Shown: one piece after another, positions 16,690 to 22,974 of the stretch
Numbering within the stretch: position 1 is the first letter of the stretch
How the letters are laid out: the number at the start of each line of letters is the position of its first letter
Source: a virus
Direction: 5' to 3' (one strand)
IMG/VR virus record: IMGVR_UViG_3300048029_000176
Span: 1 to 22,974 of that record
DNA length: 22,974 nt
Position numbers and translations under genes: made by a program
Notes under the pieces: model-generated
What the model saw: only the letters and a program-made list of their open reading frames with translations
Database searches by the model: none
Told to the model about the DNA's origin: nothing

Positions 16690-17744
16690 TGTATTTCAAG
16701 ATTCTGTGCCTCTGTCATCAAAGATGATATTTCTCTTTTAATTCTATTTTTATCTAAATCAGTTTGTACTGAGTCGATGTAATTATACACTACTGTTTCA
16801 GTATTGTCAATGTTTATTTCGCCGTCATCTACATTTGTGCCAATAAACTCAGAAAAGTCTTCTGCAATTTTTAGTTCATGTATTTTTTGACTTTGTATTC
16901 TATCAACAAATCTTTCAAACTTGTAACTATCACCTTTGTTGACTACAATTAGTTTTACAAATTTATTATCTAGATATCTTAAATCTTGAAAGTCATTTAT
17001 CTTTTCGTGGTCATAATATATTTTTTCAAAGATAGTGTTTGGATTTAGTATTGCTTCTATTTCTCTTGTTTCAGTATCAAGAACATGAAAGTATTTTTTA
17101 TCGCCACAATCATTCCAGAAGAACTCCATTTGTGCCCCTAGATAATGTATGTTACCCTGAGAAGACTTAGCATGAAAATGTCCAGTCAATACCATTTCGA
17201 ATCTATCAAATAATTTTCTATCCATACCGTCATGTGCTGGCATACCTCGATACATGTCAAAACCAATTAGTTCTAAGTGGGCACCAATGATAGATGCATT
17301 ACAATTGTTAATAAACTCTAGTGATTCTTTTTCATTGTCATCTGCAATCCATGGCACTAGACCTATTTTTAATCCATCATAATCCATGACAGTAGGTTTT
17401 TGAATGATATTTACTTCATTCATATAGTGACCTTGTAATTCTTTTAGTGAGTTCAACTCATTCGTGTTTTTAAAATAAGTGTCGTGATTACCTAGAATAA
17501 TGTCCATAGTCATACCATATTCTCTTAGTTTCTCAAGAAATATTTTACGATTATGATTTAAGCATTTGAAATTGACTGTTTTACGATTATCGTAGTAATC
17601 ACCAAGATGTAATATTCTTGTAATGTTGTTTTCTAGTAAATAGGGAAAGAATACATCACGATAAAATAATTCTTGATAGTCCATAAATATATCAGAAGAA
17701 TTACGAATACCGCAATGGGTATCATTTAAGATAGCAATTTTCAT
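16686..17744 (-). CDS. 47: Recombination endonuclease subunit, T4 gp47-like (Mre11/SbcD family)
   Basis: The nuclease of the gp46/gp47 complex (352 aa; T4: 339). Calcineurin-like phosphoesterase motifs are all visible: NDTHCG near residues 7-12 (D-x-H), LGDYYDNR (G-D), LGNHD (G-N-H-D), and GHFHA (G-H-x-H). I chose ATG at 17744 rather than the longer frame from 17798, because GAGGAA lies six bases upstream and MKIAILNDTH is the family start. The longer form would also begin upstream of the predicted transcription start. Confidence 0.95.
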   Translation of the reverse strand: MKIAILNDTHCGIRNSSDIFMDYQELFYRDVFFPYLLENNITRILHLGDYYDNRKTVNFKCLNHNRKIFLEKLREYGMTMDIILGNHDTYFKNTNELNSLKELQGHYMNEVNIIQKPTVMDYDGLKIGLVPWIADDNEKESLEFINNCNASIIGAHLELIGFDMYRGMPAHDGMDRKLFDRFEMVLTGHFHAKSSQGNIHYLGAQMEFFWNDCGDKKYFHVLDTETREIEAILNPNTIFEKIYYDHEKINDFQDLRYLDNKFVKLIVVNKGDSYKFERFVDRIQSQKIHELKIAEDFSEFIGTNVDDGEINIDNTETVVYNYIDSVQTDLDKNRIKREISSLMTEAQNLEIQ

Positions 17745-17769
17745 TGAATGTTCCTCACAATTGTGTAGT

Positions 17770-17798
17770 ATTATATATATCTCGGCAACTTTTGTCAA
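17770..17798 (-). promoter_or_regulatory. Sigma70-type promoter for gp47-gp46-gp45
   Basis: Minus strand TTGACA (17798-17793), 17 bases, TATAAT (17775-17770). The predicted start is near 17763, with GAGGAA and the gp47 ATG just downstream. The -35 and its upstream flank (TTGTCAACCACTAATTT on the plus strand, 17792-17808) recur with one mismatch at 22190-22206. Confidence 0.87.
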
Positions 17799-17823
17799 CC
17801 ACTAATTTGCAGGTTGTAAAATA

Positions 17824-17831
17824 TATAAATA
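17824..17831 (+). promoter_or_regulatory. T4-type late promoter box
   Basis: TATAAATA, an exact match to the T4 late promoter element recognised by gp55 with the gp45 clamp. In T4 spacing the start would be at about 17837, which is the A of the ATG of the structural gene. No -35 is needed for this class. Confidence 0.7.
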
Positions 17832-17836
17832 GATGT

Positions 17837-18373
17837 ATGGCAGTAAACTCAACAGTACAAGTAGATGACCAGAATCTAACCACGAATCTAAATTATCTAC
17901 AACCAACTGGATTTAAACTTTTAATAGATAGAGTTAAATATCCTAATTTAGAATACTTTTGTCAAGGTGTTGCACACCCGAGTGTTCAATTAAATCCTGT
18001 CGAGTTGCCTACAAGAAGAATTACATCTGTACCACTTGCTGGTGATAAAATAACTCATGGTGAAATTACATTTACAATAATACTTGATGAAAACATGACT
18101 GGTTATAATGAAATGTTTAATTGGTTACAACGACTAGTAAATGATGGACAAGTAAATCCTATACAAAGAAATACTAAATTTCCAACTTATGCAGATATAA
18201 CTCTTGCAATATTATCGAGTCACAATAACACAACTCAAAAAATTAGATACAAAGATTGTTTACCTACTGGTTTAGGTGCTATAAACTTTGTTACTACGAC
18301 TGGTTCAGTAACGTACTTAACTTTTGATGCTACGTTTAGATTTAGTCAATTTGAGATAATCGCACAAACCTAA
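17837..18373 (+). CDS. Virion structural protein, probably tail-tube-like (gp19-type fold)
   Basis: A 178-aa protein with YLQPTGFKLLIDRVKYPNLEYF near the N-terminus, RRITSVPLAGDKIT in the middle and a beta-rich C-terminus ending FDATFRFSQFEI. The pattern (beta strands, R-x-I-x-V-x-G-D, a helix such as NEMFNWLQRLVNDG, and a final strand) resembles T4 gp19/gp54-type tube proteins (T4 gp19 has RKINVAGDRTFDDW, 163 aa). I place it as a tube or baseplate-tube relative rather than a definite gp19. The ATG at 17837 is used, since the upstream part of the frame covers the gp47 promoter. It sits behind a late box, as expected for a structural gene. Confidence 0.7.
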   Translation: MAVNSTVQVDDQNLTTNLNYLQPTGFKLLIDRVKYPNLEYFCQGVAHPSVQLNPVELPTRRITSVPLAGDKITHGEITFTIILDENMTGYNEMFNWLQRLVNDGQVNPIQRNTKFPTYADITLAILSSHNNTTQKIRYKDCLPTGLGAINFVTTTGSVTYLTFDATFRFSQFEIIAQT

Positions 18374-18374
18374 T

Positions 18375-19460
18375 ATGAAAATAATAAAAACTCAAACTCC
18401 AAAAAACATAGTCGAATATAACGGAGAGGAATATCCTGCAAACTTAGACCCAACAGATGTTGTTGAAATTTTTCAAACACCTTTAACTGGTTCTTATAAC
18501 TGGGATTATACTGTTCAAGATAATCGTATTAAAAAACTATATGAATTAGGTAAAGAACTTAATTGGAATGTAGAAGTCGATGTTGACTGGTCACCAGAAT
18601 TAAATGATACAATGCCAGATGGTGAGTTCGAACATAAAGATGCTCAGTGGATAAATCACCCACAATATAAAACTTGGGATAGAATGAGACGTGAAGAGTT
18701 TTTTAACGATTTAGATAGTTGGGGAACAAGTCAGTTTCTTCATGGCGAACAGGGCGCATTATTAGTTGCAAGTCAATTAACATCATGTGCGCCAACATTT
18801 AATGCAAAACTATATGCGGCCTCTCAAACTTTTGATGAAGCAAGACACGTTGAAGCATTTAATAAGTATATTCAAACAAGATTAGGAAAAAGATGGCCAG
18901 TTGGTAGAGCATTAAAAGGTTTACTAGATAAAATACTTACTGACCCTAGATGGGATTTAAAATTTATCGGTATGCAAGTAATTATTGAAGGTCTTGCACT
19001 AGCGGCCTTTCAAGCGGCAAAAGAAGGTACTAATGACCCAGTTTATAAACAAATGTTAGAATATATTATAAGAGACGAAGCAAGACACGTTACTTTTGGT
19101 ATAAATTATTTGACTGATTTTGTGCAAACACTTTCAGAAGAAGAACAAATGGATAGAGCAAAGTTTGCCTTAGAGGCATGTACTGTCAGCAGAAACAGAT
19201 TAAAAGCATATGAAGTATGGAATAAATATGGTCTAAATATAGAAGAGACAGAAGAGTATGAAAAAGGTCATGTATTTCAAACTCAGTTTCAAGATGTATT
19301 ATTCAGTAGAATAATGCCGAATCTTAAAAAGATAGGACTATTACGAGAAGAACTTACGCCTGAATATGAGAAACTAGGTGTTATGGGTTATGCAGAAGGT
19401 GATAGTGATTATGAAACAAGTTGGGAAGAACTTAGTAAACCATTGAAGGAGGCAGTATGA
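18375..19460 (+). CDS. Di-iron carboxylate (ferritin-like) oxygenase-type protein
   Basis: A 361-aa helical protein with a complete di-iron ligand set: Glu125 (HGEQGALL), Glu155 and His158 in DEARHVEAF, Glu205 (IIEGLALAAF), and Glu235 and His238 in RDEARHVTFG. The E...ExxH...E...ExxH pattern is that of ferritin-like oxygenases, AurF-type N-oxygenases and R2-like proteins. It is not the phage ribonucleotide reductase beta subunit as far as I can judge. Substrate is unknown; it is probably an auxiliary metabolic gene taken from a bacterial host. The start at 18375 follows the tail gene stop by one base and has no Shine-Dalgarno, so coupling is likely. Confidence 0.8.
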   Translation: MKIIKTQTPKNIVEYNGEEYPANLDPTDVVEIFQTPLTGSYNWDYTVQDNRIKKLYELGKELNWNVEVDVDWSPELNDTMPDGEFEHKDAQWINHPQYKTWDRMRREEFFNDLDSWGTSQFLHGEQGALLVASQLTSCAPTFNAKLYAASQTFDEARHVEAFNKYIQTRLGKRWPVGRALKGLLDKILTDPRWDLKFIGMQVIIEGLALAAFQAAKEGTNDPVYKQMLEYIIRDEARHVTFGINYLTDFVQTLSEEEQMDRAKFALEACTVSRNRLKAYEVWNKYGLNIEETEEYEKGHVFQTQFQDVLFSRIMPNLKKIGLLREELTPEYEKLGVMGYAEGDSDYETSWEELSKPLKEAV

Positions 19461-19657
19461 CAAGTGAAATAATTGATGTGTTAATTAAACAATGCGAAGC
19501 GGGCATTGAAAGACATAAAATGAATGTAAGAGTGCTAACTGAAAAAAGAGTTGGTCTTGCAGAACATGGTGATTTAATAGTGACTATTGAAGAAGAACTA
19601 GACAAGATTGCACACTACGAAGATAGACTAGAAGTACTAAAAAAACACTTTACATAA
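19457..19657 (+). CDS. Small coiled-coil hypothetical protein (66 aa)
   Basis: A 66-aa helical protein with heptad-like spacing (IIDVLIKQCEAGIERHKMNV... YEDRLEVLKKHF), suggesting a short coiled coil. The start is very well supported: AAGGAGG just before the ATG at 19457, which overlaps the previous stop as ATGA. No family is recognised. Confidence 0.8.
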   Translation: MTSEIIDVLIKQCEAGIERHKMNVRVLTEKRVGLAEHGDLIVTIEEELDKIAHYEDRLEVLKKHFT

Positions 19658-19677
19658 TCTGCCTAATACTGTATAAT
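19649..19677 (+). promoter_or_regulatory. Sigma70-type promoter for uvsY-uvsW
   Basis: TTTACA (19649-19654), 17 bases, TATAAT (19672-19677). Expected start is near 19684, giving a 17-base leader with AGGAA before uvsY. The -35 overlaps the end of the 66-aa gene. Confidence 0.75.
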
Positions 19678-19683
19678 AGGCAG
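19659..19683 (+). terminator. Hairpin overlapping the uvsY promoter
   Basis: A 7-bp inverted repeat CTGCCTA (19659-19665) and TAGGCAG (19677-19683) with an 11-base loop containing most of the -10 box, followed by TTTATAG. It could act as a weak terminator for the upstream genes. The T-run is short, so the call is tentative. Confidence 0.4.
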
Positions 19684-19700
19684 TTTATAGGAAATATATT

Positions 19701-20150
19701 ATGGTAAATTTAGAATCAATACTTGCAGAGTGGAAAGAAGATTCACAGATATCAAAAAATCAATTAGATGAAGTATCTAGAATCACACCTGCATTGCACT
19801 CAAAATATCTAGAGTATCTTTCACTTACTAAACTCAGATTAAAAAGAGCAGAGTTTGACCAGAAAAATCTGTTAAAAGAAAAATGGTTATATTACGAAGG
19901 TAAAATGCCACAAGAAGATATAGAGAAAAGAGGTTGGAAAGCAGACCCATATGATGGACTTGTTATCACAACAAAAGGTCAGAAAGAAAATTGGTATGAT
20001 ACTGATAAAGAGATTCAAGATTCTGAATTAAAGTTGCAATATTTACAGACAACTATTGAAACACTAACTGAAATAGTAAACAATCTTACATGGCGACATC
20101 AAACGATATCGAACATGATTAAGTGGAGACAATTCGAAACTGGAATATAA
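19701..20150 (+). CDS. uvsY: Recombination mediator UvsY
   Basis: UvsY loads UvsX onto single-stranded DNA coated with the phage SSB. The 149-aa protein (T4: 137) shows the UvsY layout: an N-terminal LESILAEWKEDSQISKNQLDEVS segment, LHSKYLEYLSLTKLRLKRAE, KEKWLYYEGKMPQED, and a C-terminal helix ending IKWRQFETG (T4 ends QDMRAFEAGK). ATG at 19701 has AGGAA upstream and its own promoter. It is immediately followed by uvsW through a TAATG overlap, as expected for a recombination pair. Confidence 0.9.
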   Translation: MVNLESILAEWKEDSQISKNQLDEVSRITPALHSKYLEYLSLTKLRLKRAEFDQKNLLKEKWLYYEGKMPQEDIEKRGWKADPYDGLVITTKGQKENWYDTDKEIQDSELKLQYLQTTIETLTEIVNNLTWRHQTISNMIKWRQFETGI

Positions 20151-21646
20151 TGCGACCTGCAAATACTATAGAGATTGGTCTCAAAGACCATTCGATGATG
20201 TTGATAGATGCCGAAGGGCATCAACTCAAAGAATTATCTGAATACTTTTCATTCTTTGTCCCTGGGCATAGATATATGCCAGCATTTAAACGTAGAGTCT
20301 GGGATGGCAAAATAAGATTATTTAATCAAATGACACGTGAGTTAAATGTCGGTCTATATCCACATATAAAGAAGTTTGCTCTAGACAGAATGTACCCAAT
20401 TCAACTTGTCGATAATGACGAGTATGGACACCCCGAAGTAAAAAATAAAATACAACACAAGTCTTTAATAAAGTATCTTGATAGTTTAGATGCGCCATTT
20501 GAAATAAGAGATTATCAGTACGATGCAATATCGCATGGTATAGAAAACAAAAGATGTTTATTATTATCGCCAACTGGTAGTGGTAAATCATTTATTATTT
20601 ACAATTTATTACGTTGGTACTATGATAATCACGACAAGAAAATGTTAGTTATTGTTCCGACAACAAGTTTAGTAGAGCAATTATATAAAGACTTCTATGA
20701 ATATGGGTTTGATGTTGACAATGAAGTGCATCGTATTTATTCTGGTAAAGATAAAGTGACTGACAAACGTATTATCATTTCTACGTGGCAATCTATCTAT
20801 CGACTTAAGTTTGATTGGTTCGAACAGTTTGGTGCAGTCTTTGGTGATGAAGTGCATTTATTTAAAGCAAAATCATTAACTGGTGTAATGAACAAATGTA
20901 AGAATGCAGAATATCGTTTTGGTACTACGGGTACACTGGACGGTACAGAAACAAATAAATTAGTATTAGAAGGATTGTTTGGTCTAACTCATAAAGTAAT
21001 CGCAACACGTGATTTACAGGTACGTGGTACTCTTGCTGGTTTAGATATTAACGTTCTATTGTTAAGATATCATAATGACGTATGCCACATGATGAAAGGC
21101 AAGACATATGCAGAAGAAGTAGATTATATTGTACGCCACGAAAAACGAAATAACTTTATTAAGAATATGACACTAGATTTAAAAGGCAATACTTTAGTTT
21201 TATTTCAGTTTGTCGAAAAACATGGTAAAGAACTTTTCGAAATAATAAAGAAAGATGCAGACAAAGACCGAAAAGTTTTTTACGTATCTGGTGAAGTAGA
21301 TGCAAAAGACAGAGAACAAATAAGAGGTATAGTTGAAACACAAAAGAATGCGATTATTGTTGCATCATTAGGTACATTTAGTACAGGTATTAATATAAAG
21401 AATCTCCACAACATTGTTTTTGCATCGCCTAGCAAGAGTCAGATAAAAGTATTACAGTCGATTGGTCGTGGTTTGCGACAATCAGACGATGGCAGTAATA
21501 CAACTTTGTATGATATAGCAGACGATATGCATGTGAAGTCACATAAAAACTTTACATTGAGACATAGTGGAGAAAGAATAAAGATATATGCGAAAGAACA
21601 ATTTCCATATAAAATTATTCCTATCAATTTAAAAGGTGATAAATAG
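20150..21646 (+). CDS. uvsW: Recombination DNA/RNA helicase UvsW
   Basis: Superfamily 2 helicase (498 aa; T4: 503) that remodels stalled forks, R-loops and recombination intermediates, and in T4 helps move from origin to recombination-driven replication. What is seen: an N-terminal domain with FSFFVPGHRYMPAFKRRVWDGKIRL as in T4, motif I SPTGSGKS, motif II DEVH, a motif III-like TTGT, and motif VI QSIGRGLRQ. I chose ATG at 20150 (TAATG overlap with uvsY, TGGA upstream) over a GTG at 20123 inside uvsY. Confidence 0.95.
   Translation: MRPANTIEIGLKDHSMMLIDAEGHQLKELSEYFSFFVPGHRYMPAFKRRVWDGKIRLFNQMTRELNVGLYPHIKKFALDRMYPIQLVDNDEYGHPEVKNKIQHKSLIKYLDSLDAPFEIRDYQYDAISHGIENKRCLLLSPTGSGKSFIIYNLLRWYYDNHDKKMLVIVPTTSLVEQLYKDFYEYGFDVDNEVHRIYSGKDKVTDKRIIISTWQSIYRLKFDWFEQFGAVFGDEVHLFKAKSLTGVMNKCKNAEYRFGTTGTLDGTETNKLVLEGLFGLTHKVIATRDLQVRGTLAGLDINVLLLRYHNDVCHMMKGKTYAEEVDYIVRHEKRNNFIKNMTLDLKGNTLVLFQFVEKHGKELFEIIKKDADKDRKVFYVSGEVDAKDREQIRGIVETQKNAIIVASLGTFSTGINIKNLHNIVFASPSKSQIKVLQSIGRGLRQSDDGSNTTLYDIADDMHVKSHKNFTLRHSGERIKIYAKEQFPYKIIPINLKGDK
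21638..21645 (+). promoter_or_regulatory. Possible T4-type late promoter box
   Basis: GATAAATA, seven of eight bases of the late consensus TATAAATA, overlapping the uvsW stop. As at 17824, exactly five bases separate it from the next ATG (21651). It could be chance, because it reuses the codons GAT AAA TAG. Confidence 0.3.
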
Positions 21647-21650
21647 TATT

Positions 21651-22139
21651 ATGGAAGTAAAACATTTTAAGTTAGACACAGGAGAAGAACTTTTGTGCGA
21701 AGTGGTAGAATGGCATGATGAAGAAGGGTTTGAAGACGAAATAATAATTCGTAAAGCGGCCAAATTAGTTTACACTAAAACAACAACTGGTATACCTTTT
21801 TATTCACTACGCCCATGGATGGTGTATCAAGAAAACCTTTCAGATGTTATGACGTTAGACAGAAATCATATTGTCGGTATGGCAACGCCTCCAGATTATT
21901 TAATTATACAATGGGAAGATGCTATTCTAGATATGCAAGAACTTCATAATCAAAGACAGAAAGAAACATTTGCAAAAATGAAAAATTTTTATGAAAAAGC
22001 AAAAGATAAACCTGTATCAGAATTGATTGGAGATTTATTAGATAATATAAAAGAAAGTATACCGAAAGAAGAGTATGAAGATAATGTGATTGAATTATTT
22101 CCTAAAAAAGATGGTGATGATTCAGATACAATTCATTGA
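21651..22139 (+). CDS. Hypothetical protein, possibly LSm-like N-terminus (162 aa)
   Basis: A 162-aa acidic protein. Its N-terminus (HFKLDTGEELLCEVVEW... IIIRKAAKLVYTK) has the strand pattern of small Sm-like barrels seen in several phage hypotheticals. The middle contains IPFYSLRPWMVYQ and the C-terminal third is a charged helix with an acidic tail. I recall similar proteins beside uvsW in marine T4-like phages, but no function. The ATG at 21651 is preferred to GTG 21636, which lies within uvsW. Confidence 0.75.
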   Translation: MEVKHFKLDTGEELLCEVVEWHDEEGFEDEIIIRKAAKLVYTKTTTGIPFYSLRPWMVYQENLSDVMTLDRNHIVGMATPPDYLIIQWEDAILDMQELHNQRQKETFAKMKNFYEKAKDKPVSELIGDLLDNIKESIPKEEYEDNVIELFPKKDGDDSDTIH

Positions 22140-22167
22140 GTATTCAGCGCCCCGGCGAACTTTAAAG

Positions 22168-22196
22168 ATTATACCACACAAAACATAAATTGTCAA
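22168..22196 (-). promoter_or_regulatory. Orphan antisense sigma70-type promoter
   Basis: Minus strand TTGACA (22196-22191), 17 bases, TATAAT (22173-22168), both perfect. It points left into genes that are all on the plus strand, with a predicted start near 22161. The first bases of the RNA would form a compact GC-rich hairpin (22143-22159), then run antisense to the 162-aa gene. No ORF longer than a few codons follows, so an antisense or small RNA is the natural product. Confidence 0.75.
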
Positions 22197-22211
22197 CCAT
22201 TAATTTAAAGA

Positions 22212-22240
22212 TTGACTAAATATGTAACATAGAGTATAAT
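22212..22240 (+). promoter_or_regulatory. Sigma70-type promoter for gp55
   Basis: TTGACT (22212-22217), 17 bases, TATAAT (22235-22240). It is back-to-back with the antisense promoter, the two -35 boxes being 15 bases apart. Expected start is near 22247, so the GGAG at 22243-22246 would fall just outside the mRNA unless transcription starts a few bases earlier. Confidence 0.75.
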
Positions 22241-22254
22241 ATGGAGAAATGAAA

Positions 22255-22854
22255 ATGACAAAAGCGAGTGAAAAACCACATTACGTAAACAACAAAGAGT
22301 TTTCGTTAGCAGTAGTAGATTATTGTGAGAAAGCAGAGAAGGCAAAAAAACAGAAATCAAAAAAAGTGCCAATCGTACCTGACTACATTGCAGAATGTTT
22401 TTTAAAAATAGCAGAAGGGTTGTCACATAAATCAAACTTTATAAGATATACGTATCGTGAAGAAATGGTCATGGACGCCGTAGAAAATTGTTTAAAAGCA
22501 ATTAAAAACTATGATATTAAAACTGCAACAAGAACTGGTACACCAAATGCATTTGCATATTTTACTCAGATATCTTGGTATGCATTCTTACGTAGAATCG
22601 AAAAAGAAAAGAAACAACAAGACATTAAATTAAAATACATCGCCAATGTTGGTATAGATGATTTAGTTGACACACAAGATGGTGATATTAATCCAGACGA
22701 ATCTACTGCATTTATAGACAATCTACGTTCAAGAATCGATGGTGTTAGAGCAAACGATTTATATTGGAAAGATATTGTTACAGAAGAGAAAAAGAAGACA
22801 AGAAAGAGACGTGCAGTAAACGTTGATTCAGATTTAAAAGATTTCTTAAAGTAG
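22255..22854 (+). CDS. 55: Late transcription sigma factor, T4 gp55-like
   Basis: gp55 is the highly diverged sigma that directs host RNA polymerase to TATAAATA late promoters with gp33 and the gp45 clamp. The 199-aa protein (T4: 185) aligns in order: HYVNNKEFSLAVVDY (T4 KYNYVNNKELLQAIIDW), CFLKIAEGLSHKSNFIRYTYREEMVMDA, then NCLKAIKNYDI, TPNAFAYFTQISWYAFLRRIEKEKKQ (T4 [23 protein letters not shown]). A basic C-terminus precedes SDLKDFLK, a likely clamp-binding tail. ATG at 22255 is eight bases after GGAG; ATG at 22249 is too close to it but would suit a leaderless start. Confidence 0.93.
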   Translation: MTKASEKPHYVNNKEFSLAVVDYCEKAEKAKKQKSKKVPIVPDYIAECFLKIAEGLSHKSNFIRYTYREEMVMDAVENCLKAIKNYDIKTATRTGTPNAFAYFTQISWYAFLRRIEKEKKQQDIKLKYIANVGIDDLVDTQDGDINPDESTAFIDNLRSRIDGVRANDLYWKDIVTEEKKKTRKRRAVNVDSDLKDFLK

Positions 22855-22911
22855 GTATACAGAACCCCCGGATAAGTCTCTAGTCTATAGTATATATACG
22901 AACTAAGTTTT

Positions 22912-22974
22912 TCAGAACTGAACTGAGACGCCACACCCACATGACGATACTTCTTTAGGGTTTATTATTTTAAA
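22912..22974 (-). CDS. C-terminal end of a HesB/IscA-type Fe-S carrier (partial)
   Basis: A minus-strand frame enters from the right edge and stops with TGA at 22912-22914. The 20 visible residues end NPKEVSSCGCGVSVQF. The NP-x-x-x-S-x-C-G-C-G pattern is the conserved C-terminus of A-type iron-sulfur carriers (IscA, SufA, ErpA, HesB), whose last two Cys bind the cluster. HesB-like genes are known from marine T4-like phages. Only the tail is present, so the rest is unverified. It is convergent with gp55. Confidence 0.65.
   Translation of the reverse strand, partial: FKIINPKEVSSCGCGVSVQF

Follow-up and report, generated by a model that had tools for sequence, protein, structure and literature searches.

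The replication origins oriF and oriE of bacteriophage T4 are among the closest described counterparts of the locus analyzed here. In the T4 record, oriF lies downstream of uvsW with a primer that runs back toward uvsW, and the oriE primer is given as the 'complement of gene 5 transcript'. According to the parts of PMC3016281 drawn on here, the R-loops formed by oriF transcripts very likely give primers, oriE apparently needs an early promoter, and R-loops at oriF and oriG are unwound by UvsW, a late product. Cyanomyoviruses are reported, in the portion of PMC2984593 used, to be without motA; if so, an origin of this kind would need another promoter type in these phages. Among openly licensed papers, we found no title on where marine T4-like phages begin replication and none describing the element reported below, the latter being weak evidence of absence.

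The window (the whole stretch analyzed, a 22,974-base virus record) comes from a marine T4-like phage. Left of ~17.8 kb, its genes lie almost all on the minus strand, and from ~17.7 kb a plus-strand run encodes a tail tube protein, an AurF/ribonucleotide-reductase-like protein, uvsY, uvsW, a 162-aa protein (hereafter, X), and gp55 (Table 1). The initial annotation, which placed all neighboring genes on the plus strand, is thus correct for ~17.7–22.9 kb only and not leftward, where nearly all are minus-strand. X has weak matches to phrog_527 and to phrog_471 'methylamine utilization'. The 361-aa protein encoded after the tail tube gene and before uvsY (18375–19460) matches both AurF and the ribonucleotide-reductase small chain, in both cases weakly and under the curated cut-off. 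At the head of the plus-strand run, TATAAATA may be a T4-type late promoter; its pattern has 3 matches in the window compared to 4.7 expected, leaving position as its sole support. The sequence GTATACAGAACCCCCGG, directly after the gp55 stop (22855–22873; also at 82843 in G001), closely resembles GTATTCAGCGCCCCGG after the X stop (22140–22155); both are located at gene ends, and the GTATACAGAACCCCCGG copy has no visible TTGACA-type antisense promoter.

Table 1 Features of the window around the antisense promoter (coordinates on the 22,974-base record)
Feature	Coordinates	Strand	Remark
TATAAATA, possible T4-type late promoter	17824–17831	+	Head of plus-strand gene run
uvsY	19701–20150	+	PF11056; same run as uvsW
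uvsW helicase	20123–21646	+	UvsW_N, ResIII; second gene the antisense transcript would enter
Gene X, 162 aa	21651–22139	+	Overlapped by predicted antisense transcript
Conserved initially transcribed block CTTTAAAGTTCGCCGGGGCGCTGAATAC	22140–22167	-	Ends at X stop codon
Predicted transcription start	22161	-	Seventh base after -10; inferred
-10 box TATAAT	22168–22173	-	17-base spacer; TG precedes
-35 box TTGACA	22191–22196	-	Antisense promoter
gp55 early-type promoter TTGACT-17-TATAAT	22212–22240	+	Divergent from antisense promoter
gp55 late sigma factor	22249–22854	+	phrog_234, E 4e-50

Behind X, the minus strand carries an exact TTGACA-N17-TATAAT at 22196–22168, as the initial annotation had stated, together with a TG before the -10 box. 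The pattern TTGACW-N17-TATAAT occurs seven times in the window compared to 0.05 expected from shuffles, showing that the antisense promoter is not due to chance. Six sites are perfect TTGACA-N17-TATAAT, all on the minus strand; five of them point at minus-strand genes (four within ~110 bases of a gene start), and the site behind X is the only one aimed straight into plus-strand genes. Judged by its perfect sigma-70 consensus, this promoter should be usable by the host polymerase early in infection. The claim that no coding ORF follows it holds for the first 530 bases past the expected start, where minus-strand ORFs all stay below 60 aa; further on, a mechanical 62-aa minus-strand ORF (21439–21627) lies inside uvsW. 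A minus-strand leader peptide was considered and rejected on the same ground (a very short ATG-to-stop frame was noted by eye only).

Relatives were collected through X (70 loci) and through two gp55 proteins (at least 80 rows for each, partly overlapping), with the addition of the named phages C48C1, P-SSM3, Mosig, Sf-FP1, and P-TIM68 and two single-cell marine viruses. The set comprises 243 sequences (242 loci and the window), 233 of which have gp55; the window itself and fragments of it (such as L076, the representative of the window's clade) are among these 233, and some contigs occur twice. Clustering by shared 8-mers reduced the 233 to 146 non-redundant clusters, and the seven clusters without X in the locus were left out, giving 139. 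An antisense promoter was scored when it contained TTGAC and agreed with the consensus at 10 or more of 12 bases. Among the matches listed, such a promoter lies between X and gp55 in 138 of the 139 non-redundant X-holding loci (225/226 overall), whereas the same rule gave 2.2/139 in shuffles and 1/137 in equal-length stretches just upstream; the shuffles used here for promoter counts, terminators, and the inverted repeat preserve base composition only. The sole miss (L239) keeps TTGACT-17-TACATT, which matches at 9/12 bases. Within 180 bases before gp55, a minus-strand promoter of at least 10/12 was found among the matches listed in 204 of 233 loci, compared to ~17 in shuffles, and in 124 of the 146 clusters, again among the matches listed. 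When gaps between plus-strand gene pairs were compared, the promoter was present in 117/121 X-gp55 gaps vs. 8/86 other gaps drawn from the same loci, and at least five of these eight contain this same element, separated from gp55 by an inserted gene (L007, L212, L213, L216, and L228).

This conservation extends over relatives in which the identity of X proteins goes down to ~38%. The sixth base of the -35 box is A in 75% of 123 non-redundant sites (sites chosen to begin with TTGAC), and the -10 box is kept with variation within what a sigma-70 box allows. Alignment of related phages had been proposed as a check, and both boxes proved to be retained in relatives that keep the neighboring genes (138/139 non-redundant X loci), so that the antisense promoter at this locus is genuine and conserved beyond what could be known from the window. 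On this sequence evidence, a promoter of host sigma-70 type is fixed in antisense orientation behind uvsY-uvsW-X of marine T4-like phages. A direction scan of 11 records with the pattern TTGACW-N17-TANRMT found 13 forward sites and 1 reverse site in Sf-FP1 (200 kb), and 1 forward and 13 reverse sites in G003 and G004; the lone opposing site is the antisense element by its coordinates in all three. In P-SSM3, P-TIM68, and G006, the element is one of two sites opposing the prevailing direction. The pattern misses the element of C48C1 and Mosig because of a TTGACG -35 box or a 16-base spacer, and a separate scan found both.

Across 130 sites, conservation is high over the -35 box, the -10 box, and ~25 bases beyond, and then returns to background. 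Directly after the -10 box and around the expected start, we found an inverted repeat in 117/138 sites compared to 33 in shuffles, with 42 distinct arm pairs; examples with TGT between the arms are AACTC-TGTCAA-GGGTT, AACGG-TGT-CCGTT, and CGACT-ATGT-AGTCG, and TGT occurs within bases 5–10 past -10 in 119/138 sites. An earlier count gave 111/121 sites (a subset of the 123 profiled sites) vs. 27 in shuffles, and 38/118 still after a 20-base shift. The repeat is followed by a purine-rich tract (77% purine at bases 17–24 past -10 in 130 sites). Exchanging arms between loci lowered the repeat fraction from 0.85 to 0.44. Among stems of at least five pairs that close with one mispair, 50 sites (10 distinct arm pairs) require G.T when read on the antisense strand and none requires C.A, many of the G.T stems deriving from one ancestral T.G. 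Covariation of the arms and the occurrence of G.T but never C.A imply that selection seems to act on the structure in the antisense (non-template) strand. At the usual distance of seven bases past -10, the start falls within the TGT, and hence either a hairpin forms in the DNA strand during initiation or transcription truly begins upstream; if the start is inside the repeat as expected, the RNA would carry one arm only.

The repeat is absent in 21/138 sites, including the window's clade, which has CTTTAAAGTTC-CCGGGG-GCTGAATAC or a close variant instead; in the window, the CTTTAAAGTTCGCCGGGGCGCTGAATAC block occupies the place where most relatives carry the repeat. The initial annotation had described a GC-rich hairpin at the RNA start. 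A GC-rich block is indeed present (22147–22157), but it folds like shuffled sequence (z of -0.10, 0.11, and 1.45 for three stretches holding the block), and its pairing is broken in same-clade relatives such as L007 and L015 (by eye). With no stable hairpin, the alternative suggestion that this block is a plus-strand terminator for the sense gene also lost its basis.

Three features would fit a promoter for a small regulatory RNA that starts with a hairpin and works in trans or through X: the conserved first 25 bases, the purine-rich tract after the hairpin, and the covariation of the hairpin arms, with G.T pairing in the antisense strand. The instability of the window's hairpin, the lack of the repeat in its clade, and the expected start, which excludes the 5' arm from the RNA, argue against it. 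Minus-strand terminators downstream show no excess (25/118 loci vs. 21/118 after a single shuffle), and no lasting synonymous constraint was found in X or uvsW, the last 20 codons of X reaching 0.51 compared to 0.34–0.48 elsewhere in X (26 sequences). Positions 17000–22974 of the window returned four Rfam 15 matches, all below the gathering score, with E of 0.66 or worse. As neither a conserved terminator nor an RNA family nor lasting constraint was found downstream, the discrete hairpin-bearing small RNA proposed in the initial annotation is unlikely, and we consider a regulatory RNA acting in trans or on X quite improbable.

The two -35 boxes of the antisense and gp55 promoters are 15 bases apart in the window, as had been noted, yet the functional coupling of the two promoters that was suggested from this spacing is not supported by the relatives. 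The distance between them ranges from -50 to 66 bp (106 gaps; large negative values may reflect misassigned boxes). The element stands directly behind X despite genes before gp55 in, for example, L007, L039, L212, L213, L216, L217, L228, and L236, and it follows further coding sequence behind X in L020, L023, L036, L037, L047, L056, and L064. These inserted genes and the variable placement show that the element is not tied to gp55, and not to the precise point where X ends either; when genes intervene, it keeps its place behind the uvsW operon. Neither fixed geometry nor co-inheritance with gp55, the traits of a coupled bidirectional promoter, was found.

The same comparison bears on whether the element is a boundary, at which polymerase from the antisense promoter would block uvsW-operon transcripts from entering the gp55 operon (a roadblock or collision insulator). 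In C48C1, P-SSM3, Mosig, Sf-FP1, P-TIM68, S-PM2, and S-RSM4, it lies between X and gp55 at a likely late/early junction, with uvsW and X presumably late and gp55 early if T4 timing carries over. However, the element leaves the side of gp55 when other genes are inserted, and early promoters should be off when insulation would be needed. A promoter with TGT that opposes the main gene direction is also found almost solely at this element in six genomes (one each in Sf-FP1, P-TIM68, P-SSM3, and S-PM2, one more in Mosig, and none in C48C1). We regard a boundary function as improbable.

Antisense interference is the main rival to an origin: early transcription against X, uvsW, and uvsY would silence the operon until late transcription, by collision or by duplex formation with the mRNA, a mode that we take to resemble lambda paQ. 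The antisense orientation agrees with such a role, as does the fixation at the end of the gene run in 138/139 loci, whichever gene is last. A conserved antisense promoter over a gene, one trait of cis-antisense RNAs, is present, and phages are known to make cis-antisense RNAs, CfrI and PAK_P4as15 among them (PMC12197685 and PMC2984593, in the parts used). The second trait, a defined RNA end or a constrained antisense body, is absent, since the body shows no lasting constraint and no conserved end. In addition, if uvsW is late as in T4, the RNA would appear at a time when its target is not being made, and such promoters are rare in other plus-strand gaps (8/86, at least five being the same element). 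We regard interference as somewhat less probable than an origin; if antisense control were nevertheless the element's function, it would be nearly universal among the phages examined.

Copies of the promoter-plus-repeat module also exist outside this position. A second copy stands in sense orientation before small genes once each in S-PM2, Sf-FP1, and P-SSM3 (from 2238 on in L300, S-PM2 162737; from 1446 on in L298, Sf-FP1 17945; and P-SSM3 131787). The exact cyanophage form of the module was found in 119 viral loci among the matches listed, 101 antisense in the X/gp55 position and 18 elsewhere (L324, L327, L346, L359, L366, L371, L377, L380, L398, L401, L402, L405, L412, L416, L418, L422, L428, and L434); a smaller count of 80, among the matches listed, contained 70 antisense copies in the X/gp55 position and 10 that were not. 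The off-position copies examined seem to stand before short genes. The sense and off-position copies imply that the cassette is a phage promoter type able to drive genes as well, and hence that the module does not mark an origin specifically; the antisense X/gp55 copy is the syntenic one. We also considered whether the sense copy is syntenic with T4 oriE, because by position it lies just behind gp5/lysozyme genes in S-PM2 and Sf-FP1 and behind a lysozyme relative in L416, and discounted this because this arrangement is absent in P-SSM3 and the direction is sense, unlike oriE. As to a host origin of the module, the genome collection gave one match (L441, 2686–2731), on a 4.4-kbp contig of a Lewinella bin that is perhaps a misbinned phage contig.

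With only modest confidence (a probability of roughly 0.4), we propose that the element is the RNA-primer promoter of a T4-type replication origin. Compared to the T4 record, its position and direction relative to uvsW are those of oriF, in the window as well as in the relatives. The sequences show the promoter with its conservation, placement, and orientation, the covarying repeat that favors the antisense strand, and the absence of conserved product features; when and whether the promoter is active, where it starts, the R-loop and its use as a primer, and the shut-off through UvsW belong to the scheme that we infer. In it, host RNA polymerase would initiate at ~22161 early in infection and move leftward, the G-/purine-rich first ~25 bases would favor an RNA:DNA hybrid, and in most relatives a hairpin in the non-template strand around the start would aid it. 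The hybrid would then prime leftward leading-strand synthesis; later, the promoter would fall silent and UvsW would unwind leftover hybrids. Conservation that fades ~25 bases past -10, together with an unconstrained transcript body, fits a promoter that serves to start a hybrid. Only tentatively can this be extended to an origin behind uvsW that is common to marine T4-like phages, in which a non-template hairpin at the start site holds the R-loop and which fires across uvsW.

In 7/7 genomes, third-position GC skew is higher to the right of the element than to its left (20 kb; 6/7 at 10 kb), and third-position AT skew falls across it in 6/7 genomes, which is the direction expected of an origin but only suggestive. 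The GC3 shift at the element ranks at the 65th–92nd percentile of its genome (six genomes ranked) and is confounded with gene class. Plain cumulative GC skew showed no clear origin signal at the element in four genomes. The detrended cumulative GC-skew minimum of P-TIM68 (113149) lies 1.3 kb from the element (111862), and the minimum is not near it in three others. A local AT-rich unwinding element downstream was not apparent, as no peak occurs by the start in a region that is AT-rich throughout (59–73% AT). Under the origin reading, the origin would fire across uvsW, and the UvsW helicase, produced late, would bring replication from it to an end. The site is ~60 bases long, is conserved across cyanophages, a pelagiphage, and uncultured relatives, and can be tested directly.

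Bacterial divergent or bidirectional promoters likewise consist of two back-to-back promoters, sometimes with a shared palindromic -35 sequence (by eye), but here the distance varies and the element is separable from gp55. CfrI of cyanophage S-PM2 is also an antisense RNA of a marine T4-like phage, although it belongs to another locus, at psbA, and is ~225 nt long (PMC2984593, in the part used). T4 oriE shares a primer that is antisense to a late gene and apparently an early promoter; it differs in lying within gene 5, with repEA/repEB and 12-nt iterons (PMC3016281, as far as drawn on here), and no similar inverted repeat follows the nearby TATAAT (by eye). A T4 inverted repeat, CACGTTAAAACGTG, lies just upstream of the TATAAT before oriF (L442, 2886–2899) and differs in place from the marine repeat (by eye). 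The oriF promoter is of the MotA-dependent middle type (same portion of PMC3016281) and its transcript doubles as that of uvsY, whereas the marine element is a plain host-type promoter, antisense and without a gene of its own, with uvsY across uvsW. Like T4 oriF (ori(uvsY)), however, it is a promoter downstream of uvsW that is aimed at the uvsW 3' end and adjoins recombination genes.
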